Positions 120 through 63,815 of a stretch of DNA of 64,000 nt are shown here, piece by piece. The notes under the pieces are model-generated. The model ran no database searches, was not told the DNA's origin, and was given only the letters and a program-made list of their open reading frames with translations. A program made the translations under genes and the position numbers. Source of the stretch: Pegea sp. RAD2-039 (lineage: Eukaryota; Chordata; Thaliacea; Salpida; Salpidae); NCBI GenBank assembly GCA_034620365.1, contig JAQGEQ010000372.1, positions 95,498 through 159,497 on the forward strand. Direction: 5' to 3'. The first letter of the stretch is position 1; the number at the start of each line of letters is the position of its first letter.

Positions 120-3091
120 TTATCGATTCCTTCTGGATATCCTCACGCTAGATCTTCGACATCGGCGATTTTTCTTCCAACGATAATAAAATTGGACGAC
201 TTCTTTAACCGTTTTGTCTTTGAGCTGTATAAGTAAAGTTATAAATATATTAGATATTTATGTAATCTTAATAACAATCACAAAAAGTAATTTCTTTTGT
301 TTCGAAAAGTATTCAAAATGGATTAAATTGTTTACAGTTGACTCAAAAAATAAAAAGGATATAGCTAATGAATTTACTAACATAGTCCTTCTGTATATTC
401 ATGAAATTCTTTTTGTGTTTACGGAAACCCCTTACAAACATTTTACGATCATTGATGGTCCAATTTTCCATAAAAGGAGTATTTTTTTGCTTGATAGAGT
501 AAGCTTCAAAAGCCTTAAAATAAAATAACAGTTTAAGCTTTAGAATAAAATCGGAAGAATTTCAAAAGATATTTTTTTAATTGTAAGACTTTAACATTTA
601 TTGGGAATGTAAAGGAAATAAGAAATAAGTGAACTGTTAATATTTATCTGTTTTATCATTTACCTTTTTAACGTCATAATCATTTTTAGATAAGACTTCA
701 AATGCTTCCTCATAGAAAATTTCTGAATGATTTTTCTTACCATCACTTGCTGGATTTTGTTCAGAGCAAGTGGAAATAAAATGTTTTGCTTAAAAAAAAT
801 AGAATATTAAAATTGTCATTGCTGGTGAACTATTGTTTCAACAAACTTAATAAAAACATATTTTAAATTTAAAAATCTTATTTATTATTTACAGGTTAAT
901 ACTTTTGAGTTTTAATTTATCAACTATTACAAATGTCCATCTTTGAAAAAACCTACCATCTTCATCAGATAAACGCTTCGAGTCAAAAGTTAGCTTTGAC
1001 AACTCAACTTCTTCAAAAGTTCTGTTAATCTCTGGTAAATTGGTAATCTACAAATATACTTTAGTAATTGCTCAAATACAGTAAATTATAAATTACTTGA
1101 TATTGTTCACCAATCCTCTGCTTTACTCTATGTTTATCCCAACACTCAATCAATTCAGAAAATTCATTTCTGACTAGATAAAAAAATTGAGAATTTTTGT
1201 TGTTACTTAAATTGCAATAAGAGTACAAGCAAAATAAATGATAAGAAATATAATTTTTCTTTTTACAGTTATAAAAAGATTAGTTAGAAAAAGTAAACTA
1301 ACAAAAAAGTTACGAAAGTATATAATCTTTGTTATTAGAGTTAGCTAAATAAATAGTACTACTACAAAATAAATTATACAGTATATTTTATCTAAATAAT
1401 TGATGGTATCCTTATAAAAAAACCAGTAATTGCTGAAAACAAAATTTTTAATTAACTATTAATATTGAACTCTATGGATATTTCTTAACCTTATAAAGAA
1501 AAGGAAGATAAGTGCACCTTGTTACTGGATAAAAAATAACATCAATACTTTTAATTAAAATCTTAAAGATAACAGTTTGGAGTCTCAATATATCAGTATT
1601 TACTTTAGACTTCTCTATTTTTAAAACTTACATTCTTCATCAGAGAATGAGCTTGAGTCAACATCTACATTTGAATTTTGACAGTCGCCAGCGGTATTTT
1701 CTACGTTTGGTGGGCTTTCAACCTATAAAATTTTTATTAGACCTGACCATTTATTGAAAATTTTTTCTTACTTGACATTGTTCATCAGTCTGTGATTCGC
1801 TTCTAGTTTCATCACAAAGATCTGGAAAATGGTCTAAATTGTCATTTGATTTTTTCTTAACTAAACAGACACTTTAGATAAAGTTAATGATTCATTGAAA
1901 AGCATTGAATTATAAAAAAACTACATTAGTTTTTGAACAAACTAATAAATTTAGTTTTTTAGTTTAAAATCGTAATGAAGATTTTATAAAATTAAAAATA
2001 GTTCTTTAATGTTGAAAACCAATTTAGTTTGCAAGTTAAATAGCAGAATAATTTTGCTGTTTTACCAGTTTCATAGTTACATAGCTCAATCGAAATTCTT
2101 TCAAGAAATGACAAAAACACAAAAAAAAATTAAAAATTATCAAAACTATTCTGCCAAAAGTAAAATAACAAATAAGTAAAAACCAATACACATATAGATT
2201 TTAAGCACAGATGGATTTACCGTTTTGTTGACTGGAATTGGTTGGAACATTCTTTTTTTGTTGGCTCTCCTGGGTTGTTTTTCGTTTGCATTTGAGTTCG
2301 GTAGAACTATTAGATTCTGTTTTATTTTCATTGGAAGGATCAGTTGATAATTGTGTATGAATTGGTTCATCTAGCTGATTGCTTGATGAAGGATTTTCAT
2401 TTGAAATTTCTTCCAGATTATTTTCCTTTTAACGTGAAAATGTTATTTAAACTTTCATGATTGCTATAACTACTTACCCTTTCATTAGTAAGTTCATAAT
2501 CACCCCACATTTCCCCCATTAAAATCTTGTTTCTAATATGTTGTGGCTTCTAAAGAAATAAAGTAGTTTTATAAAATCAACTGTAAAAAAATAACTTACA
2601 ATCACAGCTATAACATCAGGATTTCGTCCACCTGGCTTTCTACCATCTTGAATGCCTGTCAGATTTTATATAAAAAATGACAAAAGAAAAATTATTTAGT
2701 AAACTCACCTTTCATATTCATTCCTATGTCAAGACAAGTTTTAAAGCGACAATACTGGCATTTTCCTAAATCTTTTACAGCACAATTCTTGGTATACATA
2801 CAAATGTAAGTTTTTCTGGACTTAACAGTTCGCCAGAAAAAGCATTTACATGCTTCGCAGCAAATCACTCCGTAGTGCTTGCTATTACGGACAACTTTGC
2901 TTTTCTTGACAACTTTGCGTTTCTTGACAACTTTGCGTTTAATGAGATCCAGACAGACCACACATTTTGGTTTTTCATCCTTGTTAGCTAAAAAAAAGTG
3001 GTTAATATCTAGGACAAATAATTTTTGTCCAAAACTTACTTTTGTTGACATGTTTTTTCACATAAGATTTGCGGTCAGCAGTAGACTCCAT
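120..3091 (-). CDS. Nuclear-receptor zinc finger fused to ELM2-SANT, copy 1 (13 exons, 466 aa)
   Basis: Exons by hand (minus strand): 3091-3040, 2987-2709, 2655-2600, 2549-2478, 2425-2221, 2097-2066, 1855-1772, 1722-1632, 1173-1097, 1047-957, 788-664, 513-382, 224-120 (stop TAA). All introns are GT-AG and all phases agree. Residues 26-97 are a C4 nuclear-receptor finger pair (C26, C29, C61, C64; C80, C86, C94, C97) with P-box CEACKC, followed by the C-terminal extension GRKPGGRNP (about 115-123). Residues 130-290 are a polar Ser/Asn/Glu hinge. ELM2 follows (RIGEQYQITNLPEIN at 310-324, helical part to about 395), then SANT (about 404-452, W406, W448, ending VKEVVQFYYRWKK). ELM2-SANT proteins bind HDAC1/2; the finger should bind DNA half-sites. 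There is no ligand-binding domain. The likely role, inferred, is a ligand-independent DNA-targeted repressor in the nucleus. Confidence 0.85.
2890..2943 (-). repeat. Three 18-bp coding repeats inside zinc finger I (copy 1)
   Basis: Three tandem 18-bp units (2890-2907, 2908-2925, 2926-2943; the last diverges at its final bases) encode the six-residue unit K-R/S-K-V-V-K between the first and second Cys pairs of finger I. They lengthen the C29-C61 spacing to 31 residues, against 13 in ordinary nuclear receptors. Confidence 0.85.
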
Positions 3092-8291: not shown

Positions 8292-9574
8292 ATGAGTTTT
8301 AGCATACCTGTCTCGCAACAGCACCATACTGTTGAGGTTTATCAAATGAATTTAAAGCAAGCATTCGCCCAGATAAAGCTTGCTTTAATGACATATAAAG
8401 TCATCTCAATTGTAAGTTTCTAATTATTAATAACTAATTGTATCTTTAAAACTTTTAAACTTAAGGATCTCTACAATTATTTTATTTTTAGGACACGGAG
8501 TTTCCCGGCGCTATATTCAAAGAACCTAAATTCTTAGCCCCGGAAGAAAAATATCTGTACATTAAGAAAAATGTTGATGCTGTTAAGTTAATACAATTAG
8601 GAATCACTTTAATGAACGAAAAGGGTGAATTGGCAACACCTGTATGTTGTTGGAATTTCAATTTCCGGTTCAACATCAGGTATGTAGGAAATGATTTACA
8701 TAAATTTTAATGTAAATGTTGTAGAATCAAAACCATTAAATTTCTTAATGCTTGTACAGACAAGATGCAAGCTGCCAAAAGTCCATTGAGTTTCTTCAAA
8801 AAAATGGCGGAATTAATTTTGCTGTGCTTCCAGCTATTGGAGTGGATATAGAAGACTTTAGAAAATTTGCTGTTGAGGCAAAGCTTTTCTACAATGATTT
8901 AAACACATTTATAGTGTTCCATGGGTATGTATATTTCAATTGATTTAATTAATTGGTTATTACTTTAATCCCATAATGTATACAAGGAAGCTAAGCTAAC
9001 AAAATAAATTTGCAAATTTTACCAGGCAATACGACATTTTTTTCCTGTTGAAAGCCATTGCAAGATCACTTCCGGCTAATAGAGAGGAGTCACAAATCCT
9101 AATTCGTTCCATTTTTGGAAAGATACTTGATTTGAAGTACATTCTTTTACACGATGATAATGTAAGTTTCTCATGTCTGCAAAATATATCATGATTTTTA
9201 ACAATTAGTTAAAATCTTAGCGTAAAGGGTATGGACTACAAAGACTAGCTGATGAATTAAATGTTTCTCGGATTGGTAGTGCACATTCAGCTGGAAGTGA
9301 TAGCAATTTGGCAGGAAGAACATTTTTTGCCGCACGTGATGTAAGTATACTTGCTTAAAAAAAAGGAATCTATATTAATCAATTTGTTGCTTATTATATA
9401 AACTCTTTATATATTAAAATATTCTACCTGAAAAATTAAAACGTAATTTAATTTAGATTTTATTTTTGACAGATGTATCATCTGTTTGGAAACGATCAAA
9501 TACAAGCACATGAGTTGAAGATTGCTGGTTATGATTCATTTTGTTTTACAAATGGCAAACATTGTTATTATTAG
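8292..9574 (+). CDS. CNOT7: CCR4-NOT deadenylase subunit CAF1/CNOT7-like, copy 1 (6 exons, 276 aa)
   Basis: Exons 8292-8411, 8492-8679, 8760-8924, 9026-9161, 9221-9340 and 9473-9574 splice in frame with GT-AG introns of 59-132 nt. The product is a DEDDh 3'-5' exoribonuclease that shortens mRNA poly(A) tails within the CCR4-NOT complex. Visible motifs are DTEFPG (D41, E43), FHGQYD (D161), and AHSAGSD (H225, D230). These sit within one residue of the catalytic positions in animal CNOT7 (D40, E42, D161, H225, D230), and the length of 276 is close to the usual 285. The start is the first ATG after a TTTCTAG acceptor-like site 25 nt upstream. All active-site residues are present, so it should be active. 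The gene symbol gives the family, not a one-to-one orthologue. Confidence 0.93.
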
Positions 9575-11016: not shown

Positions 11017-12064
11017 CTAATTATCATCAACATATTTTGTTAACTCTTTTAACCCATATTTTATCAAAATATCAATATAATTTTTCATCATATCTTCTTT
11101 TACAAATGCTGCTGAATAATCCTTAAATTCTATCAAAGGACGCATCAGCAAATATTCATCTAGTATCCTATCACCTGGTAAGCCTTCATATTGGTCAACT
11201 CCAGTTATGTGAGTTACAAGTATCTGCAAAATTTATGGAACAGACAACTCTTCAATCATGTACAAATAAACGACTTTCTAGGGTTTAATATTCTTCACAT
11301 TTATGCGTATTGTGTCGTGATAAGTTTGAAGTTTCAAGTTATATGGCTTTTGTATGAAAAACATGATTGTTAAACATTCTACTAGAACCGAAACACAATT
11401 TTTTATCTTTCTGAGACAATTTTAGCTTAGAGTAGTTCATCCAACAGTTCTTACTACAATTAGTTTTTATGGCTTGCATGTTCTTATCAAATAATTGATT
11501 TTTATCTTAGATAAGCTTTGCAAGTTTTTCTGCATCCCTTGATTTTCTATTTATAGTGTTTCTTTCATTGATTTTAACTTTAACATATTTTTCTCAATTG
11601 CATTTAAATTACTTTTGTTTCCTGCAGATTTCAAATCTACATCAGAATGTTCAGAATTTTGTAGCTGTTCTCGTCTTTTTAATCGCTCACAGCGATCGAA
11701 CTTTTGTTTGAATTTTTTGTGAAAATCTTGCAGAATTTTGCTTTGATCTCCCTCTAAAAAATCCATCAAATCATTTTCATCAGTAATTTCATCAATTTCG
11801 TCTCTGTCAGTATCTTCATTAAGATCAAGTGAAAAATTGCTACTGCTCTCACTACTAGTAGAATAAACTTTGTCAGCTTTTTCACACATATCATTTGCCT
11901 TTCTTTTCTTGATTGTTCTTAAAACAAACAAATTTGACTGAAATTGTGATTTACCATTTTTTGTAGAACTTTTCATTTCCTCAAAATTAAAATAATCCTT
12001 TCTGAAGCACGGACCCATGATCTTAACAAGATCGTCTTGATTCGTAAGCAATTGAAAATCTGGA
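11017..12064 (-). CDS. Unrecognised locus X, copy X1a (charged nuclear-type protein)
   Basis: Two open blocks lie on the minus strand. The upstream one (12064-11551) begins after a GTTAG acceptor and reads SPDFQLLTNQDDLVKIMGP, a basic patch KKRK, an acidic Ser/Asp/Glu stretch, then a Lys/Glu coiled-coil-like end and stop TAA. The second (about 11226-11017) follows a TTTTGCAG acceptor and reads ILVTHITGVDQYEGLPGDR to a YVDDN end. I do not recognise the family and found no clear donor joining the two blocks. Upstream of the second block the MYMIEELS reading is broken by TAA in this copy but open in the X2 copies. The patches suggest a nuclear protein, by inference only. The second subfamily (X2) shares both blocks, so the pair was one gene or two adjacent genes before duplication. 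Confidence 0.45.
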
Positions 12065-14994
12065 CTAACATAAAGAAGTTTTTGGGAATAATTAGAAAAT
12101 TAATTTTCTAAACAATATAAACCCCTAACAACTTTAGCCTTTCAAAGATAAATTAATGATATCAAATGTACTTAAATCCTCAATCTCAAAATCAATTCAA
12201 CTATTTTAACTTAAATTTATACTGTATCAGCTAATTTATTACATAATTTTACCTAAAAGTAAATAGAAGACTAAATATAATCTTACAGTAATAGATTGAC
12301 TTGTCGCTTTATGTTTGTTTCTTGTAATACGTTACTTTTTACATTTTCCACTTCTTCAGGATAACAAAAGTAATTAAGAGGCTTTCTGTAAGATTTCCGC
12401 TTTAGTCAAGACATTTAAATTATGTAGTGTTTTTAACGCCACTGAACTAGTTATGGATTGTATGGCTACTAGAAAAATAGTGTGTTGGTTGCTAAGTTGC
12501 ACAACTGTTCAAAACTATTTTACTATTTTGGTTTTGTTAGCAGAATCAATCAAATTAATGTTTGCTCTCAAATCTATTTTAATCCAACAATCATCGTAAA
12601 TACTGTATATAAGTAAATAAGATTAAATTATGCAACACTTTTGCAATTGACTTTATTTAGAAATGAAGTTAATCGACGTTTTCAAATTTAAAGAAAGAAA
12701 TATAAGCATTGAAATATTCCTACAGATTCATTTGTTTTATAAATCTTAATCTGTTGCATGACTAGAAAGTTATATTGTGAGTTTGTAATTTTTTTAATGT
12801 TAGAACAGTTGACAAAAGTGTTCAGACGAAAAACAAATTTTTAAGTAGATGTGATTATAGCGAAAATTGATTTTATATATTTACTGATAACTCAATCAAA
12901 ACAAAAACTGATGCGATAGCACCAAAGAAGTAGTTTTAATCTATGTCAATTATAAAGGCACAACGTGAATTTTAAGTACACTCATTTTCTAAAATGATTT
13001 ACTTTTATTTAAAATGAAAAACTTGCCAATAATACTATCTGTATTTATATGAAATATTAGTTTTTTTAGGATGCTATAATTACAAACTTTACTATATTTA
13101 CTTTCAATTCTTTTTAAACCATTCTTACGTCAAATTCAAATAAAAAGCCAATTAGGTGTGTTTATTTCTTTTAAGATCGAAAGATTTTATTAAATCATCT
13201 ATTTTCATCTACAGAGTAACATTTAGATGTAACACTAACTGAACATTTAGTATTCAAAAAAACCTTTTTGCCGACATTATATGTCCCATTTTTCATATTT
13301 CTTCAAAATCCATGCTAATTATTTTTATTAAAAAACACAAACATAACATAAAAATAATTATTTCTTTACCTGCTTTCAAAGTTTATGGAAATAATAATTT
13401 TTTTATATATAGAATCCAAGGTCAAAAAAACAATTAATAATTAATCACGTTGGCGCATTTTTTTAGCGACCAAATTTTCTACCAAAATTTTGTAAACATT
13501 AAACCAACATATCTAAACCGTTGATTTAGATGTCTTATGTTACTGCAACTTATTAATTATTTTTTTTAAGGTGTTACTTTATAAGAAGTTTAGAAATTCT
13601 TTAGTGTAAAAGTAAAATTTTCATTTAATATTTTCTTGGTGCTAGTCTTCATCTTAGTATAGTCTTCATCAGCAAAAATATATTTTTTGTTTAGGTTTTA
13701 TTTATCTATTAATAATCATGTTTTTTATAATTTTTGACCAATGTACTGTATAAATTAAGATGAGATGAATCACTTCAAATTTACCATTATCATACTTTTA
13801 AAATTATTATAATTTAATATAGCTGAATCTTTTCACACAAATAGTATTTTAAAAAATTCCCTTTTTGGTTTAACATAAAAATTGTTATTATTAATTTTAT
13901 ATCAAAAGATTTGTAATTTTATCATAGCTTTCTTTGTTTGAAAACTAGATTAAATAATAGACCTGGCTATTTTTTTTAAATGTAATGATTCCAAAAACAA
14001 CTTGCATCTTTTCATGTCAGTTTTTTTTTACTTCTCCTACAATCATAGCTAATTAATTTTGTTAGAAAAAAGAAATAACTAAAAAATGATTATCACTATA
14101 TTATTTTCGAATTACAGCTTTTCTTTCAACTCACATCATATAAAAATTTATTATACTAAGTCCAATGTTTGTCAAGCAATTAATTTTGAGTAATGATACT
14201 AACCTATCATCTAATAATTATCATTGTAAATCTAGCTTTATATAGGACTGTGTTGTAAATAACAACATTGCTTAGTTAAAAGAACAACTTTCTTTATAAT
14301 GTAAGGGTTTTCAAATAAAAAAATTCAATTATACATTATTTTATTTATGAACAGAATATTCTAGTAGTTTATAATAATTCAAAAGAGTTTGTTCATAATG
14401 ATGAACTCTATTTAAAGCTTTGTTTGCAAGTTTGGTTGTTTGACTTTAATAGATAAGTAAAACAGTTATGATTTTTGTATCTTCAGAAAAAAACTTAATA
14501 TTTTTAATATAATGTACCACTATATAAATTATAAGAAAGGAGATAAAATAATTACAGAAAATGTTATGTGATGAAGTTCATATTGTGATGGTAAGTTGTA
14601 CACGTGGTTAGACTGCAGACTCATAGTTTTAAATAAAATTCATTTATACATCAGTTTACAGTTACTGAAGGTGACGGTTATCAGCAATTATTAGACTTCT
14701 AAAATTAATAACATTTCGGAATGATAGTCTGATTTTTTGTATTCACACAACTTGCAATTAATAAGTTTTAAAATTTTTTACATCTTTAAGAAATTGCTGC
14801 TAATTTGTTTTATTAATTTATGTGAGACTCTCTACATCGCTTGTTTTAGATGAAGCAAGTGGATTTCTTCTTTATTGAATTTATTTTGTTTAACATCAAT
14901 TTTCAAGTAATCTTAAATTTTCTTGTTTAGGAGGAAAAACAAGTGAAGATGGAATGTATCAAATAAGGTTTGTGATTGGTTGTTTGAAAACATG
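12065..14994. other. Non-coding stretch before the TPP2 pseudogene
   Basis: The segment 12,300-12,600 is shared with 19,840-20,090, 30,220-30,480 and 45,760-46,020. From about 12,600 to 14,900 the sequence has no counterpart elsewhere in the window, is very AT-rich, and shows no gene that I can support. Confidence 0.5.
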
Positions 14995-18559: not shown

Positions 18560-19570
18560 TTATCATCAACATTTTTAGTTAACTCTTGTAACCAATTTTC
18601 TTTTCAAAATATATGTTTAATCTTTCATCATATCCTCACTTACAAACGCTGCTGAATATTCCTTAAACTCTATTAAGGGACGCCTCAGCAAATATTCAAC
18701 TAGTATCCTATTACCTGGCAAGCCTTCACATTGGCCAACTCCAGTTATGTGAGTTACAAGCGTCTGCAAAATTTCTGAAACAGACAACTCTTCAATCATG
18801 TACAAACAAAAGACTTTCTTGGTTTAATACACATTTATGCATATCGTGATAAGTGTGAAGTTTAAAGTGACATGGATTTTGTATGAAAATCATGATTGTT
18901 TCTACTAGAGCCAAAAAACAATTTTTTTATTTTTTTTAGACAATTTTAGTTTAGAGTAGTTAATCCAACAGTTCTTACTTCTATTAATGTTATGACTTCT
19001 ATGTCTCTATCAAAATATTAATTTTTTATCTTAGATAAGCTTTGCAAGTATTTTTGCATCTTTTGATTTTCCATTTTTATTGTCTCTTTCATTGATTTCA
19101 ACTTTAACACTTTTAATCTCAATTGAAATTAAATTACTTTTGTTTCCTGCAGATTTTATCTGCCTCAGAATGTTCAGAATATTGTAGCTGTTCTTGTTTT
19201 CTTAATCGCTCACAGCGATCAAACTTTTGCTTGAACTTTCTGTGAAAATCTTGCTGATTTTTGCTTTGATCTCCCTCTAAAAAATCTATAAAATCATTTT
19301 CATCAGTACTTTCATCAATCTCGTTTATGTCAGTATCCTCATTAAGATCAAGTGAAAAATTGCTACAGCTCTCACTACTAATAGAGTAAATTTTGTCAGC
19401 TTTTTCACACATATCATTTGCCTTTCTTTTCTTGGTTGTTCGTAAAACAAACAAATTTGACTGAAATTGTGATTTACCATTTTTTGTAGAAATTTTCATT
19501 TCATAACATTAAAATAATCCTTTCTGAAGCACGGACACATGATCTTAATAAAATCATCTTGATTCGTAAG
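18560..19570 (-). pseudogene. Locus X, copy X2a (frameshifted)
   Basis: Same two blocks as X1a. The block at 18805-18617 reads MYMIEELSVSEILQ and HITGVGQCEGLPGNR. The charged block (about 19560-19134) has lost the reading frame near 19,500, where the X1 copies read DYFNFEEM, and again near 19,140 before the Lys-rich end. The change from VKED to VSED creates a strong GTAAGTG donor-like site in block two that X1 copies lack. Function is unknown, and the copy appears broken. Confidence 0.5.
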
Positions 19571-28937: not shown

Positions 28938-29985
28938 CTAATTATCATCAACATATTTTGTTAACTCTTTTAACCAATATTTTATCAAAATATCAATATA
29001 ATTTTTCATCATATCTTCTTTTACAAATACTGCTGAATAATCCTTAAATTCTATCAAAGGACGCATCAGCAAATATTCATCTAGTATCCTATCACCTGGT
29101 AAGCCTTCATATTGGTCAACTCCAGTTATGTGAGTTACAAGTATCTGCAAAATTTATGGAACAGACAACTCTTCAATCATGTACAAGTAAACGACTTTCT
29201 AGGGTTTAATATTCTTCACATTTATGCGTATTGTGTCGTGATAAGTGTGAAGTTTCAAGTTATATGGCTTTTGTATGAAAAACATGATTGTTAAACATTC
29301 TACTAGAACCGAAACACAATTTTTTATCTTTCTGGGACAATTTTAGTTTAGAGTAGTTCATCCAACAGTTCTTACTATAATTAGTTTTTATGGCTTGTAT
29401 GTTTGTATCAAATAATTGATTTTTATCTTAGATAAGCTTTGCAAGTTTTTCTGCATCCCTTGATTTTCTATTTATAGTGTTTCTTTCATTGATTTTAACT
29501 TTAACATATTTTTCTCAATTGCATTTAAATTACTTTTGTTTCCTGCAGATTTCAAATCTACATCAGAATATTCAGAATTTTGTAGCTGTTCTTGTCTTCT
29601 TAATCGCTCACAGTGATTGAACTTTTGTTTGAATTTTTTGTGAAAATCTTGCAGAATTTTGCTTTGATCTCCCTCTAAAAAATCCATCAAATCATTTTCA
29701 TCAGTAATTTCATCAATTTTGTCTATGTCAGTATCCTCATTAAGATCAAGTGAAAAATTGCTACTGCTCTCACTACTAGTAGAATAAACTTTGTCAGCTT
29801 TTTCACACATATCATTTGCCTTTCTTTTCTTGATTGTTCTTAAAACAAACAAATTTGACTGAAATTGTGATTTACCATTTTTTGTAGAACTTTTCATTTC
29901 CTCAAAATTAAAATAATCCTTTCTGAAGCACGGACCCATGATCTTAACAAGATCGTCTTGATTCGTAAGCAATTGAAAATCTGGA
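28938..29985 (-). CDS. Unrecognised locus X, copy X1b
   Basis: Near-identical to X1a. The charged block from about 29985 to 29472 (LTNQDDLVKIMGP to KLKSMKETL, stop) and the second block from about 29147 to 28938 (ILVTHITGVDQYEG to YVDDN, stop) are both open. That both blocks stay open in the two X1 copies supports real coding sequence, though the family is unknown and the splice between blocks is unresolved. As in X1a, the stretch upstream of the second block contains TAA. Confidence 0.45.
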
Positions 29986-30454
29986 CTAACATAAAGAAGT
30001 TTTTGGGAATAATTAGAAAATTAAATTTCTAAACAATATAAACCCCTAACAACTTTAGCCTTTCAAAGATAAATTAATGATATCAAATGTACTTAAATCC
30101 TCAATCTCAAAATCAATTCAACTATTTTAACTTAAATTTATACTGGATCAGCTAATTTATTACATAATTTTACCTAAAAGTAAATAGAAGACTAAATATA
30201 ATCTTACAGTAATAGATTGACTTGTCGCTTTATGTTTGTTTCTTGTAATACGTTACTTTTCACACTTTCCACTTCTTCAGGATAACAAAAGTAATTAAGA
30301 GGCTTTCTGTAAGATTTCTGCTTTAGTCAAGACATTTAAATTATGTAGTGTTTTTAACGCCACTGAAGTAGTTAGGGATTGTATGGCTACTAGAAAAATA
30401 GTGTGTTGGTTGCTAAGTTGCACAACTGTTCAAAACTATTTTACCATTTTAGTT

Positions 30455-44489: not shown

Positions 44490-45520
44490 GTAACTAATTA
44501 TCATCCACATATTTTGTTAACTCTTTTAACCAATTTTTTTATCAAAATATATGTTTAATCTTTCATCATATCCTCACTTACAAACGCTGCTGAATATTCC
44601 TTAAACTCTATCAAAAGACGCCTCAGCAAATATTCAACTAGTATCCTATTACCTGGCAAGCCTTCACATTGGCCAACTCCAGTTATGTGAGTTACAAGTA
44701 TCTGCAAAATTTCTGAAACAGACAACTCTTCAATCATGTACAAACAAAAGACTTTCTTGGTTTAATACACATTTATGCATATCGTGATAAGTGTGAAGTT
44801 TAAAGTGACATGGCTTTTGTATGAAAAACATGATTGTTTCTACTAGAGCCAAAAAACAATTTTTTTATCTTTTTTAGACAATTTTAGTTTAGAGTAGTTC
44901 ATCCAACAGTTCTTACTTCTATTAATGTTATGACCTCAATGTCTCTATCAAAATATTAATTTTTTATCTTAGATAAGCTTTGCAAGTATTTTTGCATCCT
45001 TTGATTTTCCATTTTTAATGTCTCCTTGATTGATTTCAACTTTAACACTTTTCATATCGATTGCATTTAAATTACTTTTGTTTCCTGCAGATTTCAAATC
45101 TGCCTCAGAATGTTCAGAATTTTGTAGCTGTTCTCGTCTTCTTAATCGCTCACAGCGATCAAACTTTTGCTTGAATTTTCTGTGAAAATCTTGCTGATTT
45201 TTGCTTTGATCTCCTAAAAAATCTATAAAATCATTTTTATCAGTACTTTCATCATTTTCGTCTATGTCAGTATCCTCATTAAGAGTGAAAAATTGCTACT
45301 GCTCTCACTACTAATAGTGTAAATTTTGTCAGCTTTTTCTCACATATCATTTGCCTTTCTTTTCTTGGTTGTTGGTAAAACAAACAAATTTGACTGAAAT
45401 TGTGATTTACCATTTTTTGTAGAAATTTTCATTTCATCAAAATTAAAATAATCCTTTCTGAAGCACGGACCCATGATCTTGACAAGATCGTCTTGATTCG
45501 TAAGCAATTGAAAATCTGGA
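44490..45520 (-). pseudogene. Locus X, copy X2b (frameshifted)
   Basis: Block two at 44743-44555 (MYMIEELSVSEILQ, GVGQCEGLPGNR) is open. The charged block (about 45490-45000) carries small deletions, including one in the LDLNEDTD region near 45,283 and one in the FLEGDQ region near 45,214, so the X1 frame is lost. Like X2a it has the GTAAGTG donor-like site in block two. Function is unknown. Confidence 0.5.
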
Positions 45521-46740: not shown

Positions 46741-49175
46741 TCAAGATCGGCGATTTTTCTTCCAACGATAATAAAATTGAACGACTTCTTTAACCGTTTT
46801 GTCTTTGAGCTGTATAAGTAAAGTTATAAATATATTAGATTTTTATTTAATCTTAATAAACATTATACAAAGTAAGTTCTTTTTTTCTAAAAGTATTCAA
46901 AATGGATTAAATTGTTTACAGTTGACTCACAAAATAAAAAGAATGTAGCTAATGAATTTACTAACATAGTCCTGCTGTATATTCATGAAATTCTTCTTGT
47001 GTTTACGCAAACCCTTTTCAAACATTTCACAATCATTGATGGTCCAATTTTCCATAAAAGGAGTTTTTTTTTGCTTGATTGAGTAAGCTTTAAAAGCCTT
47101 AAAATAAAATAACAGTATAAGCTTTAGAATAAAATTGGAAGATTCTCAAAAGATATTTTTTAAATTGTCAAATTAGAAGACCTTGATATTTATTGGAAAT
47201 GTAAAGCAAAAGGCAAATAGGTGAATTGTTAGTATTTATCTGGTATAATACATACCTTTTTAAAGTCATAATCATTTTTAGATAAGACTTCAAATGCTTC
47301 CTCATAGAAAATTTCTGAATGATTTTTCTTACCATCACTTGTTGGATTTTGTTCAGAGCAAGTGGATATAAAATTTATTGCTTAAAAAATAACAGAAAAT
47401 TAAAATAGTCATTGCTGGTGAACTATTGTTTCAACAAACTTTATAAAAACTAACTTTAAGTTTAAAAATGTTATTTATTAATTACAGGTTAATACTTTTG
47501 AGTTTTAATTTATTAACTATTACAAATGTCCATCTTTGAAAAAACCTACCATCTTCATCAGATAAACGCTTCGAGTCAAAAGTTAGCTTTGACAACTCAA
47601 CTTCTTCAAAAGTTCTGTTAATCTTTGGTAAATTGGTAATCTACAAATATATTTTAGTAATTGATCAAATGCAGCTAATTATAAGTTACTTGATATTGTT
47701 CACCAATACTCGGCTTTGTTCTATGTTTATCGCAATAATCATTCACTTCAGAAAATTCCTTTTTAACTAAAAAAAAATTGAGAATTTTTATTGTTACTTA
47801 AATGGCAATAAAAGTACAAACAAAATAAATGATAAGAAATATAAAATTTCTTTTTACAGTTATATAAAGATTAGTTAGAAAAAGTAAACAAATAAAATAG
47901 TTGCGAAACTATATAATCTGTATTATTAGAGTTAGCTAATTTACTAGTATTACCACCAAATAAGTTATACAGTAAATTTTATATAAATAATTGACGGTAT
48001 CCATATAAAAATACTAGTAATTGTTTTGATTTAGTGAATAGTGATGAATTGAATTAATGTGAACCAAGGAATTAGTTAAACAGGAGAACAGCTTCTTAAA
48101 AAAAAACAAATTCAACTTTACCATCTTGTCTTGGAGGTCCTATGTAGCTTCTAAAATCAAGAGATTGCTCAGAGTCCTGCTGCGTGTTGAAAGCTTCGTT
48201 GGTTTGTTGTTGATGAAAATGAAAGCCATGATTTGAAGTAGCAGCCAGGAACTGGTTTCGATCATGCAATTCTTCACCAATGTTCTCTAATTGATCACTA
48301 CGTAAGCTTTGAAGAAACTCTTGTCTTGGACTAATAATTGGATATGGACGATACTGTTGAGGGTAATGGCTTGCTTTGAAATGATTATCAGCTGAATTAT
48401 TACAACCCCGAATTTTAAATGATTCAATTTGTCTATTACTCTGCTGAGGTCTTGAGTAACTCGTTGAAGTTGTCAAAGACATCTGATTGCTATAATTATA
48501 CTCAGCTTGTAGGTGATTCAATGTAGATATGTTATTAATTTCAGTTGTAGCAGTAGCTGATTGCGAGCTGTAATCTTGATCTTGAAGAGATTGATAAAGG
48601 TGGTTCAGCTGAGGTTGTTCTACAACAGGTGTAGAAGTATTTCGTTGATTATTCAGAAATCGATTGTAAAGATGATTGAGTCTAGCATCTTCAACTTGGC
48701 TAGCCTGTCTTGAATCTTCTCTCATGCGTTCAACCATGTATTGAGTTTCGTGAAACCATTGACTACCATAAGACCCCAAAATCTGTTCTTGACTGTACAA
48801 ATGATTTTGAGGCGAGACTTGATAGAGGTTACTGGTTAGGAAACCTGTATAAGCTGGATATTGGAGGCCAGCATAGGAAGGTTCCAAGGCAGCATAACTA
48901 GTTATCACTGGGTAAGCAGAAGAGTAACTTAGTAAACCATATGGATTTTGAAAGCTGTTTTCAGCTATTGAATAATACCCATTATTTAGGCTTATTACAG
49001 ATTGTTGGTAGCTAAGTGTAATGGTTCTACTAGTATCATCCCTAAATGACACAGGTTGATGAGTTGTAGCATCAGTTCTTGGAGGTTGATTAGAATGATT
49101 AACAGCAATTGAGGAAAAATTCTGTTGATTATTCACCATTTCATGATTAATGGTTTCATCTTCATATTCTGCCAT
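46741..49175 (-). CDS. Q/N-rich protein joined to ELM2-SANT, copy 4 (6 exons, about 515 aa)
   Basis: Predicted exons: 49175-48122, 47766-47690, 47640-47550, 47380-47256, 47097-46966, 46809-46741. Exon 1 (351 codons plus 1 nt) starts MAEYEDETINHEMV just after an acceptor-like TTTAG. It is rich in Gln, Asn, Ser and Tyr, with four NHL(Y/Q) motifs, and ends GPPRQDG at donor G/GTAAAG, phase 1. The next exon has a phase-1 acceptor and continues VKKEFSEV to SIGEQYQ (ELM2). SANT ends VKEVVQFYYRWKK, with the stop 12 codons earlier than in copy 1. There is no zinc finger. The role would be HDAC-scaffold-like, with a low-complexity region replacing the DNA-binding domain. If the splice is not used, exon 1 alone reads 8 codons further, to a stop at 48096. 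Confidence 0.65.
48015..48030. other. End of array homology, inside a phase-1 intron
   Basis: Sequence matching intron 8 of copies 1-3 (up to CTAGTAATTG) stops here. Beyond it the Q/N-rich exon and its flank have no counterpart elsewhere in the window. Confidence 0.6.
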
Positions 49176-52100
49176 ATCTAAAGCTTGAAACTTAAACAAA
49201 AAAGACACAGTCAAAAAGTTAAATTAAATTTGAACGGCTCTTAAGTCTGAAATTAGAAGAATGAATAAGTAAAGTATTCTTTATAAAAAATTAATAGAAT
49301 TTATGCTATTTAACTTATTGTAGAATAAAGAGTTCCTGAAAATAATTTGTTAGTGTTTGAGTAAACCTAGAGAAAAAAATTAACTCCTTGTTTATGCTAA
49401 TAAATTTTGTTTAAGCAAATAAAACATTTCAATATTTTAACTTTTGTTATTCAGAAAAAAATCATAAATTTGAATAATGTTCAAAGTATTGAATAAATAT
49501 TTTTAGGTTTCAGATGTTGAAACCAGAAGAGAATGTTTTCATAGTGAGTAAAAACAACAACAACAAACCTAATTTAACCAAAACGTTTTCACTTAAAGAA
49601 AAAAACTGTAGTCAATGAAAAAACAAAAAGCCATTTAAAAAACATAATTTCTTAAACTAATTTATTATCTAAAAAACTATTTCTTTGTATATTAAGGCAC
49701 AATAAACCATTTGATAACTGAATACCTTATATGGCACTTATTACATTTTTTGCCTGATTGCCATTTAGATGGTCTTTTTACTCAAATCAATTTAACCAAT
49801 TCTGACTTTCTGAAAGCTTTTTAACCAAATGTATTGGAAGTTAGAATATTTAAGCTACCAATATCTATATTAAGTAAACTCATTTACATGGTATACTTTC
49901 TAACAAACCCAGTAATTAAAACAAAAATATGAAATCTTACAACTTTTCTTTGCTTATTTCAGCTAAAAGTTCTAACAAATCATTTTCTACAACAAAACTA
50001 TACGAGTAAACTGACCGAACAAATTTTTGAAAATCAAGTAGAAAAGTATATAAAGAAAGATAAAGACTTTTTACAAAACTATCCAGTAAACTAATTATTT
50101 TTTGATGAATTAATATTGACTTCTAGAAAGTTACCTGAGTGATAAAAAATAACACAAGCTAAGAAGAAGAGATTTTCATTATAAAGTTTTATGTTGTAAG
50201 AATTTGATCATCAATAGCTAATAACAATTCTTAACACTGCTCAAACAGTTTTAAATCATCAAGAAAATAATATTTTTTTAAATAAACAACTTTCGAGAGA
50301 AATGAGAAAAAAAAGTATAAAAACAAAATATTGCAAAATAACAAAATTCAAAAACTATTAGATGCAAGTGAAAAATAGTTGAATTTACCAAAATTATATT
50401 TACAAATTATTTAACTGATTCAGAATGTTTAAAACAAATAAATAATATTTGAAATGAAATACTAAAACTTCTAGAAGGAGTATTATCTAATAATTTTTGT
50501 TTAATTCTAATGCTATTGGTTATTATTTAGATTGTAAAATCAGTAACAAGTTTTGAATGTTTTTTAAGAATTCTTCGAAACCTAGTTTTCAAAAGACGAT
50601 GACATATTCAAAATTATAAGTCTTAAACAGTCACAAGTTCGACCTCTTAGATAACTTTGCTTGTGCTAAGAACTTAATAAAATGTAATGACAGACTGATT
50701 TATAAAAGAATGTTTTTAAAAGCTTGCCTAACTTAGAATAATATTACCACAAGAAATAATACTGTACAAAAGCTTTTTTCCTCAGTAAACAAACGAAATT
50801 ATGAAGTTTTGTTTTTAAATTTGTTTTAATATAAACTGAATATTACCTATCTTATGTTTTAATTATTTTAGCAAATGTTAATAATTTTTCAAAAAGTGAT
50901 AACAAACTATCAAATCTAACAAAAATGTTAATGATGTTAATGATATAGCAATAACTATCCATTCACTTAACAAATAAATTGTTTTATTTTTAATAAATCT
51001 AATTTTTTTAGAGTGCTTTTTTCGAAAAATAGAATAAAGAATTACCAGTTAAGCTACAGTATGGAAAGTAGTTTGTATAAAATAAAAATAATTAAGTATT
51101 TTTGAAGCTTATGAGTATAAAGATTTATTTGTTTCTGTTTTTTTTTTCTAATGTCGTTAATTTTCGGCACTTCTGCTTTCTAGTAATGCTATTAAAAATG
51201 GCATTAATTAACTTATATTTTTTCAAGCTTTTATCTTCTTAGATTTTGATGTTATGCATACAATAAATATCTACTATTTCTTCAATAGCATTTCTTAGTA
51301 GTTTTAAACCTGTCTAACATTCAAAAAATTATTATAATCATAGTAAAGAACATGAAGAATAAATGTTTCATTTGTAGCCAGAATTAAGTCTAAGTGACTT
51401 CCACGATAAGCCTTATTTTTCAGTAAATGAATATTGAAAACTATTATTACTATCAACAATCACTTACAGTAACCAGTTGTATATTTAAAACAAAAATTTA
51501 AGTTTTTTCATCTTAATTTTAATCACAAGAAAGGTTTAGGTATAATTAATTTTCAAAACCAACTATTAATACTTTTCAAGAAAATATCTAACACAGCGTA
51601 GATTTTAAAAAGAATATATTAATTTATAGCAGTATTAAAGAAGGAAGTAAGGATGTAATAAAATTCTTTTTATAGTTTTTATACCAAAACTTTTTATCAT
51701 CTCAATCGATTAGTAGTAGACTGCTTAACAATAAAGGATTTTGTAACATGACTGCAAAAAACAAAACTATAATTGTGTTTAAGAGTTTGCTGTTTAACCA
51801 ATAACTCATTACCAAAAATATATATCAACAATTTTTTTGTCTAATGACAAAAACAAGAATTTTTTAGCTTTTGTTGAGTTAACGAATGATAAGATGATAG
51901 ATTATTGCTTGTAAAAAATGATATTGAAGAATAATTTGTTTAAATCTTGCAACAGTTGGTAGACATTTTAAAGTGGTTATATTATTTAACATAAAAGTTT
52001 GCTTGCTTTAAATGATTTGTAGTTTTGTTTGTTTTTCTTCTGTTAATTATATTTTTCTAGTTTTATTCAGGTATTTCATTTGTACTCACTCAGACTAAGC

Positions 52101-52216
52101 TATAGACATAAATATAATTATTTAAATATACTTGTTCAAAAAATCTTGAAATTTTTATATTGAAAATTGAATCATAGAAAAAAAATAGTTTTTTTTTAAT
52201 AAAATCTATTTAACTT
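49176..52216. other. AT-rich non-coding stretch
   Basis: I see no gene, repeat family or conserved motif here beyond homopolymer-rich AT sequence. The 5' end of the copy-4 gene (promoter, possible non-coding exon) should lie in its first part. Confidence 0.5.
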
Positions 52217-53110
52217 TCATCGAAGACTAATCAGAAGACTAGTGGCAGAAGATGATGTCACTGTGATTGTGTATGTATATGAAATCAAGCCATTATCTTG
52301 TAATCCTTCAAAACTTCAAACTGCACTAAACATTGTAGAAAACTGGTCAACGAATTGGTAGCTGAGAATCCAGCCAACAAAGTCTGAACTTATAACTTTC
52401 CTTCGTAAACCAGCTGCAAATTCCTTGGATCAATATTCCATCAATGGATTTATTATTCCAAAAATATATTCGGTTCTTGTCTTCGGCATTACTTTACCAT
52501 TTGACTTTAATTGGCACAATTATGTTACAAAGTCTCTGGAAGATCAATCAACCTTGTCTACACTATTTTAAAGAACTTTAATTCTAAGGATCCTTACTTT
52601 TTTATCAAGCTTTTTAAATTGTACGTACGTCCAATTCTTCAATACATTGTCAGTGCATGCAGCTATATCAAGTTAGTGATGACAAAAAAATCGAATCTGT
52701 TCAGGCAACATTTACGAGATTAGTATGCAGGAAACTTAATATTAAACACGATAGCTATAAACAGCGTCCCAGCTTCTTCAACTTAGATACTCTGTACATT
52801 CAACGAGTCAAATACAAGTTAATCTTTATTCTTAAAATTATCCACAAGTTAATTGTATTTCAGTTTAATGATTTTTTTACCATTAGTCCTTCTCTAAGAT
52901 CTGCTGGGATATTCTCCCAATTGCTGGTATTGAAAGTACTTGAAAGTATCTATAAAGGAAAACAAAGGACGGTCGGTGATGCATTTGCCTTTTGCTCCTC
53001 ATACAACAGATCCTTTAATCGTTATCTAGCCAGTTATCAAAAGCATGTAATTGCTTAGCAATCTGTACAACGCAAAGAAAATGAAACATGTCGAACTTAT
53101 TTCTTAATAA
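52217..53110 (+). mobile_element. LINE (Jockey/L2-type non-LTR) 3' fragment, degraded
   Basis: A reverse-transcriptase C-terminal half starting within the catalytic region, where the family's YADD reads YVYE. It continues with SCNPSKLQTALN, YVRPILQY and then, after a frame change, SVQATFTRLVCRKLN to a 3' UTR ending near TTCTTAATAAATATAATC. It is 5'-truncated and interrupted, hence inactive. It is about 80 percent like the element at 56,064-57,330 by eye and lies in the opposite orientation. Confidence 0.8.
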
Positions 53111-56063: not shown

Positions 56064-57330
56064 TTTATTTATTTCAATAAATGCAAAGAAGGGCACCTGA
56101 AAAGAGCACCTCTCGCTAACACACATTCTCACAAATAACATCTATTTTGCCATAAATATAGTAAGTAAAAGATGTTACACATATTATTTCGATATCACTC
56201 AAAGCATATAACAGTGAACAATTACATGGAATGTTAATAATATAAGAACGAAAAAAAATCACAGTTTAAAAATGACAATGTTGGGAATATTATAACGGTT
56301 CAACTTCTGGTTGAACAATACGAGTGACTTTGACATAGCAATGTCTGATGGCAGCTGATTCTATGTATTAATTGTACGGTATGAGAAACAATTTGCTCTG
56401 ACCAATGTACCAGGTGATACAGGCTTATTAAGGTGTAATGGGTGTCATCTGAGCTGATATAACTTGAAGGAAGGACTAGTAGAAAAGAATTCATCAAACT
56501 GAATGTCAATTAAATTGTGGATAATTTTAAAATAAGATTTAAGTCGTATTTAATCCGTCAGATTTTCAAAGTATCTAAATTGAAGAGACTGAGACGATGT
56601 TTATAACTATCATATTTAATATTAAGTTTCCTAAATACTAATCTTGTAAATGTGGCCTGAACAGGTTCGATTTTTTTGTCATCACTAACTTGCTATTGCA
56701 TCCATGCACTGGCATTGTATTCAAGAATTGGACGTACGTACAATTTGAAAAGATTGATGAAAAAGCATGGGTCCTTAGAATTAAAGGTCTTTGTAATAAT
56801 TTTTTAAAATAGTCAAGGTTGATTGATTTTCCAAAGATTTTGAAAACATATTTGCGCCATTTAAAGTCAGATGATAGAGTAATGCCAAGGTTTAGGACCG
56901 AAGATACTCGTTGAATAATATATCTATTGATGGAGTATTGGTTCAAGCAATTTACAGCTGGTTTACCAGAAAAAGTTATAAGTACAAACTTTGTGGGATA
57001 GATTCTGAGCTGCCAATTCGCAGACCAGTCTTCTATAGTGTGCAATGCAGTTTGAAGTTTTGAAGGATTACAAGATAATAGCTTGATATCATCTGCATAC
57101 ACAAACAATCTTACATCATCTACTGCTACTAATCTTCTGATGAGGTCTTCGATGAAAATTAAAAAGAGAAGGGGACCCAGAACAGAACCCTGAGGAACAC
57201 CACTAGTGATTTGACTAGAAGTAGATAAAGAACTTTCTATACAAGTTTGGTGGGTTCTACCTGATAGGTAATCTTCAATCCACTGTAAGATAAAGCTGTT
57301 GATTTTTATGGCGAATAATTGTAACACTTT
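56064..57330 (-). mobile_element. LINE (Jockey/L2-type) 5'-truncated copy with reverse-transcriptase motifs
   Basis: The minus-strand reading from 57327 contains reverse-transcriptase motifs GVPQGSVLGPLLF and FVYADDIKLL, then SCNPSKLQTALHTIEDW, and the C-terminal domain after a frameshift near 56,650 (IESVQATFTRLVFRKLN). The end reads NQLPSDIA and SLVLFNQKLNRY in shifted frames. The 3' tail is a short AAAT-type repeat (about 56,064-56,078 on the plus strand), typical of this class. No endonuclease domain or ORF1 is present, so it is dead but better preserved than the copy at 52.2 kb. Confidence 0.88.
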
Positions 57331-62342: not shown

Positions 62343-62570
62343 TGACTTAAGCCTTAAGCTTAAGCTTGTTAACTTGTTTTTCAAGTGAATTGTATTTTGT
62401 TAAAAGTAATAAATCTTATTTTTAATAAATAGAACTATAAAATGAGAGATTCTTTGTCTCATTTAATGTAACTTCTCATGAAATATTACGCTTAAGGATT
62501 TTGACAGTCTTTAGAAACTGCTAATAAACAACTCTATTTTTAGATTTTGATTTAGAAAAGTTGTTTAAGA

Positions 62571-63815
62571 ATGGATAGAAGATATTACTCGGGTAAAAAA
62601 CCTACTACATGGGGCATCATATGGAACCAACAAACAAAACAGTTGATTCATACATTTGAGGAGAATGAAGCCTTTTATAAAATCCAAACAGAATTGAATG
62701 GAAGCTTATCAATAAAAAAAATCACAAATTGGCGTGGTAATCGATGTATGGAACTATCTTCAGACATCCCATCGTTTTATTTGCGTCGAGAACTGGTTGA
62801 GAACTTTTATAAGGTGTCGTTCATAACCAGGAAACAAGCTGATCCAAAATTAAAGGAACACTGTAAATTACATCCGGGAACCATAATTCTTGATAAAACT
62901 TCAAATAAATTTTGTTTCGAAGATTACACGCTTCAAATCATCGTTTTTGATAACAGTATAAGCTTACCACTTTATGTTGGTGAAAAAATGTTGGCAATAG
63001 AAAATATTGGTAGAGGAAGCTTTGGAAAAGTGTATTCTGCTTATTCAGTGGATAGAAAAAAGCTGATTGCAGTGAAAACAATTGAATTCTGTTCAGGTAT
63101 TAATAAGTGGTACGGTAGAGAAATAGCTTTGAAAAACGAGAAGACATATTTGATGAGTATCAAACATCCAAATATTGTTCATGTCTTTAAGGAAGAGAGC
63201 AACATCTCCGACTTCAGTTTGTGTCTTGAATTAGCAGATAAAGGAAACGCTAACCAATTTGCTCGTATGAATATTATCACTCCGGATTTGTTAAACACGA
63301 TGTTTAAACATGTTTTAACAGGAGTGATCTATCTCCACAACAGTGAACTATTACATCGAGATATAAAACCTTCAAATATTCTGGTTTTTTATGATGGAAA
63401 AGATTATAGTTTTAAACTTTCTGATTTTGGATCAGTATGTATGGTGTCAAATGACCCATACATCTTAAAAGCTCATGGAACTCTACCATACCAACCGCCT
63501 GAAGTTGTTCGATCGATTATGTGGAAATTGCCAATTTCATATAAAAAATCGACTGATGTGTTTGCTGTTGGTGCCACATTTTACTTCATCCTGTATAAAG
63601 TCCATCCATTTGAAGCTCTTTATCGCTCTGAAGACTTTAAAGAAAAGCTTAAGAATAGATCATGGACTCAAAATGATCTACAATCTCGTCTGCAAAAAAT
63701 CAAGAATCCACTTTTAAGAAATCTGATAACATCAAGCTGGAACATAGAAGAAAAGAAAAGACCTACTGCCAATCAATTGCTTAATCACATATTTCTAAAG
63801 GATGGAAATCAGTAG
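62571..63815 (+). CDS. Intronless Ser/Thr protein kinase, TBK1/IKK-like catalytic domain (414 aa)
   Basis: One open exon. The kinase domain spans about 140-408: glycine loop GRGSFG (147-152), ATP-binding K169, helix-C E190, catalytic loop HRDIKPSN (262-269, D264), DFG (285-287), PPE for APE (309-311), DVFAVG (329-334) and the conserved R397. The layout of HRDIKPSNIL, KLSDFG and an extended loop before DVFAVGATFYF resembles TBK1/IKK-epsilon. All catalytic residues are present, so it should phosphorylate Ser/Thr. Residues 1-138 form an unrecognised N-terminal domain with beta-rich patches (TTWGIIW, GTIILDKTSNKF); a diverged FHA-like fold is possible but unproven. No ubiquitin-like or coiled-coil tail follows, so it is not a full TBK1. 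The lack of introns contrasts with every other gene here. Confidence 0.88.
   Translation: MDRRYYSGKKPTTWGIIWNQQTKQLIHTFEENEAFYKIQTELNGSLSIKKITNWRGNRCMELSSDIPSFYLRRELVENFYKVSFITRKQADPKLKEHCKLHPGTIILDKTSNKFCFEDYTLQIIVFDNSISLPLYVGEKMLAIENIGRGSFGKVYSAYSVDRKKLIAVKTIEFCSGINKWYGREIALKNEKTYLMSIKHPNIVHVFKEESNISDFSLCLELADKGNANQFARMNIITPDLLNTMFKHVLTGVIYLHNSELLHRDIKPSNILVFYDGKDYSFKLSDFGSVCMVSNDPYILKAHGTLPYQPPEVVRSIMWKLPISYKKSTDVFAVGATFYFILYKVHPFEALYRSEDFKEKLKNRSWTQNDLQSRLQKIKNPLLRNLITSSWNIEEKKRPTANQLLNHIFLKDGNQ

Follow-up and report, generated by a model that had tools for sequence, protein, structure and literature searches.

A gene on the minus strand of the window (the whole 64,000-nucleotide stretch of Pegea sp. 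RAD2-039 DNA that was analysed) appears to encode a nuclear receptor DNA-binding domain (DBD) and an ELM2-SANT corepressor module in a single chain. This combination, which a preliminary description had noticed, is confirmed as a gene model. The gene is present in four intact copies, the parentage of both halves can be followed in the same genome, and the copies have been under some purifying selection. Taken as a whole, the evidence leans towards a lineage-specific chimera of a GCNF-type receptor and an ELM2-SANT protein, without a ligand-binding domain (LBD) and including repression based on histone deacetylases (HDACs). Both halves would be carried on one mRNA, and the product is predicted to bind DNA, recruit HDACs and repress.

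After re-splicing, copy 1 of the fusion gene runs from 3091 to 120 on the minus strand in 12 exons (1374 nt, 457 aa, stop codon at 122..120), with all introns of the GT-AG type and all in phase. The limits given previously (120..3091) were correct, and the previous count of 13 exons and 466 aa was slightly off. The features of copy 1 are listed below.

3040..3091, minus strand: exon 1, start codon and residues 1-17
2709..2987, minus strand: exon 2, the two C4 zinc fingers, the first of which carries a Lys/Arg-rich insert
2600..2655, minus strand: exon 3, C-terminal extension of the GCNF type (IQDGRKPGGRN); introns at the same positions and in the same phases as in the GCNF gene on contig C42
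2478..2549, minus strand: exon 4, first hinge exon, located where the GCNF hinge exon is
2221..2425, minus strand: exon 5, Ser/Asn-rich linker
1772..1860, minus strand: exon 6, Asp/Glu-rich linker
1632..1722, minus strand: exon 7, Asp/Glu-rich linker
1174..1631, minus strand: intron 7, inside which, at 1432, the homology of copy 4 stops sharply
1097..1173, minus strand: exon 8, start of ELM2 (RIGEQYQ)
957..1047, minus strand: exon 9, ELM2 (ITNLPEIN..), with Phe at the HDAC-critical Trp position
664..788, minus strand: exon 10, aligned with the region of the C-terminal helices of ELM2
382..513, minus strand: exon 11, first part of SANT
120..224, minus strand: exon 12, remainder of SANT, followed by a basic tail and the stop

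For the receptor half, the pair of C4 fingers with a GGR extension was recovered as first described. Pfam placed zf-C4 at residues 53-108 of the 457-aa product (E 5.2e-14), eight cysteines assigned by eye occupy the zinc-finger positions (26, 29, 61, 64, 80, 86, 94 and 97), and the extension follows. The loop of finger 1 has 25-31 residues instead of 13 and the spacing in finger 2 is 7 residues instead of 9, changes that could alter DNA binding by the fusion. The best solved relative of the DBD in the PDB was NR6A1/GCNF (5krb, 65.7 bits), with NR5A2 close behind (63.4 bits). Within the genome, the best DBD match outside the fusion family was C42:329703-329900 (61.5 bits), the next being on C183 (52.0 bits). 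The C42 gene is clearly a GCNF, as it scored 141.1 bits with NR6A1 and 100.2 bits with the next best. By eye, a phase 1 intron after MN.K, a phase 0 intron after the PGGRN exon and a similar hinge exon following the latter are common to the fusion and the C42 GCNF gene. The fusion has CEACKC in the P-box and FFWR, whereas the C42 GCNF has CEGCKG and FFKR. The fusion was not firmly placed in a small DBD tree, from which five of the eight loci, including the C42 GCNF gene, were missing.

The absence of an LBD also held, as Pfam found no PF00104 in the 457-aa product and none of the at least 13 LBD matches listed for the genome was on C65 or C106. In the C42 GCNF gene, no LBD was recognised by Pfam or PDB searches of the pieces joined by eye. 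In excerpts from PMC10909835, NR6A1 is described solely as a repressor, and it binds either DR0 elements or extended AGGTCA half-sites.

Domain searches of the product, which the preliminary description had called for, gave a mixed outcome for the two halves. The zf-C4 domain was found, whereas SANT at residues 395-440 scored 19.9 bits, under the cut-off of 24.4 (Pfam Myb), and ELM2 was not reported by Pfam; an NCBIfam search returned nothing. The assignment of ELM2 and SANT is still supported, because of homology. The best solved relatives of SANT in the PDB were the HDAC-binding SANTs of RCOR, RERE, MTA, MIDEAS and NCoR, and the ELM2 part aligned co-linearly to RCOR3. A chain of homology leads from the fusion to a gene on C58 (125.7 bits), from there to a gene on C3 (84.2 bits) and from the C3 gene to Pfam ELM2 (29.3 bits). 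As the latter score is above the Pfam cut-off of 21.7, the chain from the fusion to ELM2 is closed. Searching the genome with Pfam ELM2 gave no match; single exons are short, and no positive control was detected either.

The C58 gene is the closest relative of the module (support 99), compared to 58.5 bits with the C3 gene and no more than 46.6 bits with any of four human sequences (RERE, RCOR1, MTA1 and MIER1). It carries an unfused ELM2-SANT, is homologous to the fusion exon by exon, and its ELM2 is likewise missed by Pfam. Each of the four introns in the ELM2-SANT part of the fusion has a counterpart in it at the same place and in the same phase (0, 1, 0 and 0). None of the at least 100 zf-C4 matches listed for the genome was on C58, therefore no DBD is seen fused to the C58 gene, which was read downstream of its 5' end. 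Each half has an unfused relative, with introns that match, elsewhere in this genome, so both parents can be identified.

The label MIER-like for the C58 gene, and for the parent of the module, is tentative. It was chosen because the C3 gene is nearest to MIER1 (68.5 bits, the best of the four human sequences) and, of the sequences compared with the C58 gene, the C3 gene is its nearest match apart from the fusion family itself. It is tentative because MIER1 gave the lowest score with the fusion module (RERE 46.6, RCOR1 45.4, MTA1 41.3 and MIER1 32.2 bits), and because the C58 gene scored higher with RERE (57.4 bits) than with MIER1 (50.5 bits); its best solved relative was also the RERE SANT. 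An origin from CoREST was considered, since RCOR3 and RCOR1 gave the best PDB scores and RCOR1 had the highest identity (31%) of the four human sequences. It was set aside, as the SANT loop of the fusion is one residue longer than that of RCOR, only 10 to 15 residues out of 48 match in the CoREST-like SANTs of this genome, and a much nearer relative, with every intron in common, is available in the C58 gene. Other SANT genes, named by reading, are CoREST-like at C264:489k and 494k and at C40:213k, with an NCoR-like SANT pair at C3:4312k. A weak match to RERE is located at C17:134k (E 0.002).

The number of copies was initially given as three, which is too few. There are four complete copies (three in the window and one on contig C106, locus L029), at least two loci with only the ELM2-SANT half (copy 4 of the window and L030 on C106) and five loci on C43 in which the DBD core is missing. 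The copies in the window and the open reading frame (ORF) upstream of copy 4 are as follows.

120..3091, minus strand: copy 1, 12 exons, 457 aa
20766..23698, minus strand: copy 2, 12 intact exons, 451 aa
31169..34101, minus strand: copy 3, 12 intact exons, 451 aa
46588..48023, minus strand: copy 4, the block in common with copies 1-3, ELM2-SANT half only
48096..49214, minus strand: family X ORF, located upstream of copy 4

Over the four complete copies, all 44 introns are GT-AG, there are no stops, and exon lengths differ by a single change of 18 nt. The homology of copy 4 to copies 1, 2 and 3 stops at one point in intron 7 (1432, 22086 and 32489, respectively), and its stop codon after SANT is nearer to the start of the last exon than in the other three. 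In all five C43 loci the main match begins at residue 99; L031 and L034 cover without interruption everything from the end of exon 2 up to and including exon 12, and the other three are partial. Stops together with frameshifts or broken acceptors, and dN/dS of 0.74-0.85, were found in the three C43 loci that were tested (L031, L032 and L034).

Copy 4 is probably a derived truncation and not a parent. We also considered that ORF X and the ELM2-SANT half could form a second genuine gene type, as the sequence GATG|GTAAAG in ORF X would, by eye, be in phase with the first exon of copy 4. This was rejected, because the X frames at the two ELM2-SANT loci are 375 and 383 aa versus 416-452 aa in the seven other full-length matches, the stop in the last exon of copy 4 is early, and in four of the five C43 loci a single alignment block spans the break point. 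C43 locus L035 covers the intron 7 break point too, with a gap further on. Family X (351 aa query) is rich in Q, N and Y, has 18 genome matches (in the window and on C65, C106, C148, C79 and C260) and has no Pfam family above the cut-off; on C79 and C148 it is found close to zf-C4 matches.

A mobile-element origin was also set aside, as the reverse transcriptase fragment at 56.6-57.3 kb is outside the fusion gene and the copies are large segmental duplicates. This fragment (ORF 56638-57330, Pfam RVT_1, E 2.6e-19) is overlapped by one arm of an inverted repeat (52205-52892 and 56470-57167, 82% identical). Other elements of the window are a CAF1/CNOT7-like deadenylase exon at 8492-8707 on the plus strand (Pfam CAF1, E 2.1e-5, just above the cut-off), duplicated near 26.4 and 39.5 kb in blocks that are themselves duplicated within the cluster; an ORF of up to 182 aa at 11551-12099 and 29472-30020 on the minus strand, with partial versions at 19134-19508 and 44969-45295, for which a Pfam search of 11551-12099 gave no match; and a protein kinase ORF of 419 aa, stop to stop, at 62556-63815 on the plus strand (Pfam Pkinase, E 2.7e-47).

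Selection was assessed by comparing the intact copies (c1, c2 and c3 in the window and c106 on C106). Exons were less diverged than introns in three of the four pairs tested (c1-c2, P 5e-4; c1-c3, P 3e-4; c1-c106, P 0.017); in c2-c106, exons had diverged by 2.5% and introns by 1.8% (P 0.20). In value, exon and intron divergence were about equal in c3-c106 and c2-c3. A deficit of nonsynonymous changes was significant in two of the three pairs tested (c1-c106, P 0.009; c2-c106, P 0.007; c1-c2, P 0.098). For the whole product, dN/dS was 0.37-0.63 over the six pairs. It was 0.31-0.78 for the DBD half (0.65-0.78 for c1 versus c2 or c3), 0 to 0.97 for the linker (0.97 in c1-c3 and c3-c106) and 0.22-0.34 for ELM2-SANT in five pairs, being undefined in c2-c3, where ELM2-SANT is identical. 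ELM2-SANT was therefore below the DBD half in all five pairs with changes, although the changes are few. The chance of all four copies being free of stops was P = 0.013 in a simple simulation of neutral evolution, which assumed that all base changes are equal, left out indels and had its branch lengths set by hand to match the intron distances. In the C43 locus L031, exons were no less diverged than introns (P 0.40). The evidence for selection on the intact copies is real but moderate.

The claim of a ligand-independent HDAC repressor was upheld in part: one reading frame joins the DBD to the ELM2-SANT module and no LBD was found, but a working HDAC repressor is not yet supported. The ELM2 is degenerate and a critical tryptophan is replaced. 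In the alignment, Phe 328 of the fusion (also Phe in the C58 gene) is at the position of the Trp needed by MIER1/2, so the tryptophan required there for HDAC recruitment is absent, if this Trp is the one in LLWDP, as the MIER1 sequence suggests. The IGxxYQ motif is kept in the ELM2. Lys 414, Tyr 436, Tyr 437 and Lys 440 of the SANT are in invariant alignment columns and are presumably the residues of the inositol-phosphate pocket. Excerpts from published work describe a tryptophan as required for HDAC recruitment by MIER1/2, with MIER3 recruiting little or no HDAC despite its ELM2-SANT (PMC5207708), recruitment of HDAC1 by MIER1 via ELM2 (PMC2546418), and a SANT inositol-phosphate pocket of two Lys and two Tyr (PMC4244562). 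ELM2-SANT proteins account for 13 of 15 HDAC1 binders in a further source, in the excerpts of which no nuclear receptor is among those named (PMC12448893).

The gene model could be an artefact of hand splicing that misjoined neighbouring genes, one of them an LBD-less receptor made of exons 1 to about 5 and the other an ELM2-SANT gene made of exons 8-12. Ends or starts could be concealed in intron 5 (360 nt) and intron 7 (458 nt), which are both long, and in the C58 gene the first ELM2 exon contains an ATG. However, none of the four copies encodes a methionine between residues 143 (hinge exon) and 394 (SANT), which correspond to 137 and 388 where the product has 451 aa, so that a separate ELM2-SANT protein would find no start codon in these exons. 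In addition, linker exons 5-7 keep their frame and splice sites in all four copies, the phases fit over both long introns, and the order of exons is preserved in the diverged C43 loci L031 and L034. Because of the missing methionine and the matching splice phases, we consider two genes improbable, and a single-gene fusion of DBD and ELM2-SANT is strongly favoured by the sequences. It is slightly more improbable that the copies are a recently amplified pseudogene family, with the fusion a rearrangement accident in an unstable repeat region and no functional protein. The C43 loci, with their missing DBD core, with disrupted frames and dN/dS of 0.74-0.85 in the three that were tested and with exons no less diverged than introns in L031, would be expected from such a family, as would the loss of the 5' half from copy 4 and the linker dN/dS of up to 0.97 among intact copies. 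Against this, four copies have remained intact, free of stops beyond what the neutral simulation would readily give, and the exon-intron comparison and the nonsynonymous deficit indicate constraint in most of the pairs tested.

Another possibility is that the chimera is real and expressed and binds DNA, but that its degenerate ELM2 has stopped binding HDACs, so that it would compete passively for GCNF sites as a dominant negative. The failure of Pfam to detect ELM2, the Phe at the essential Trp position, which is common to the C58 gene, and the abundance in this genome of other DBD exons for which no LBD was detected would all fit a competitor. However, the ELM2-SANT is the half with the lower dN/dS, the IGxxYQ motif and the presumed pocket residues are retained, and Trp to Phe is a conservative change. 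We regard this as unlikely, though worth keeping in mind, and the chimera probably has a constitutive repressor role.

The chimera most likely arose from duplicates of two genes. An NR6A/GCNF-type receptor gene would have given the DBD, the GGRN extension and the first hinge exon, and an ELM2-SANT gene resembling the one on C58, tentatively MIER-like, would have given the ELM2-SANT exons. These were probably joined via introns, with the frame kept and the linker exons in between. The protein would most likely bind GCNF-like sites, an extended AGGTCA half-site or a direct repeat, with a preference perhaps shifted by the unusual P-box CEACKC. The ELM2-SANT would tether HDAC1/2, resulting in repression without ligand and without a separate corepressor of the NCoR/SMRT type.

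The genome contains at least 100 zf-C4 matches versus at least 13 LBD matches, which suggests a radiation of LBD-less receptors in this animal. On C138, C150 (L039), C288, C291, C294 and C326, zf-C4 exons of nearly equal score recur every ~4.16 kb, resembling tandem arrays. On C48 (L040), C183 (L037), C204, C212 (L041), C223, C238 and C341, DBDs are found inside long frames, mostly of 401-641 aa; C48 has three DBDs ~6.9 kb apart. The N-terminal part is proline-rich in L037, L040 and L041, and the GGR extension is present in L037 and L041. Whether the fusion is, in full, a one-chain repressor with a GCNF-type DBD and an HDAC-docking module, kept by selection, amplified in a cluster and part of a wider radiation of receptors without LBD, is in our view an even call.

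Receptors normally reach histone deacetylases via the LBD and bridging corepressors. A chain that has both ends would be a natural test of which parts of the receptor-corepressor-HDAC relay are dispensable and, if our reading is true, it would be a repressor that bypasses both the ligand and the separate corepressor. Relatives of both parents are present unfused in this genome and their exon boundaries match, so that the way in which exon shuffling gave rise to the chimera is directly traceable, and with intact, truncated and decayed copies together in one genome, several life stages of the fusion are visible. The preliminary description knew of no described family with this architecture, and no nuclear receptor/ELM2-SANT protein was found among the titles and abstract openings listed by searches of the open PMC literature. 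The constituent domains are of known kinds and their combination appears to be new.

Compared to NR6A1/GCNF, the fusion has the same C4 DBD, PGGRN extension and, with the GCNF of its own genome, two intron positions and phases, but it differs in that no LBD was found, in CEACKC/FFWR, in the long basic loop of finger 1 and in the corepressor module in the same chain. Drosophila Knirps is also a receptor DBD without LBD that acts as a repressor; it recruits separate corepressors and, unlike the fusion, has no ELM2-SANT. With MIER1-3 the fusion has in common the order of ELM2 and SANT and the intron positions and phases of the C58 type, the C58 gene being nearest to the MIER-type C3 gene. It is unlike them in having its own receptor DBD, Phe for the essential Trp of MIER1/2, an end soon after SANT, an ELM2 that is missed by Pfam and higher scores with RERE and RCOR1 than with MIER1. 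A precedent for an ELM2-SANT that shares its chain with a different chromatin- or DNA-binding domain is provided by TRERF1, ZNF541, MIDEAS and the MTA and RERE families, whose fingers are of the C2H2 or GATA type, whereas those of the fusion are the C4 fingers of a nuclear receptor.
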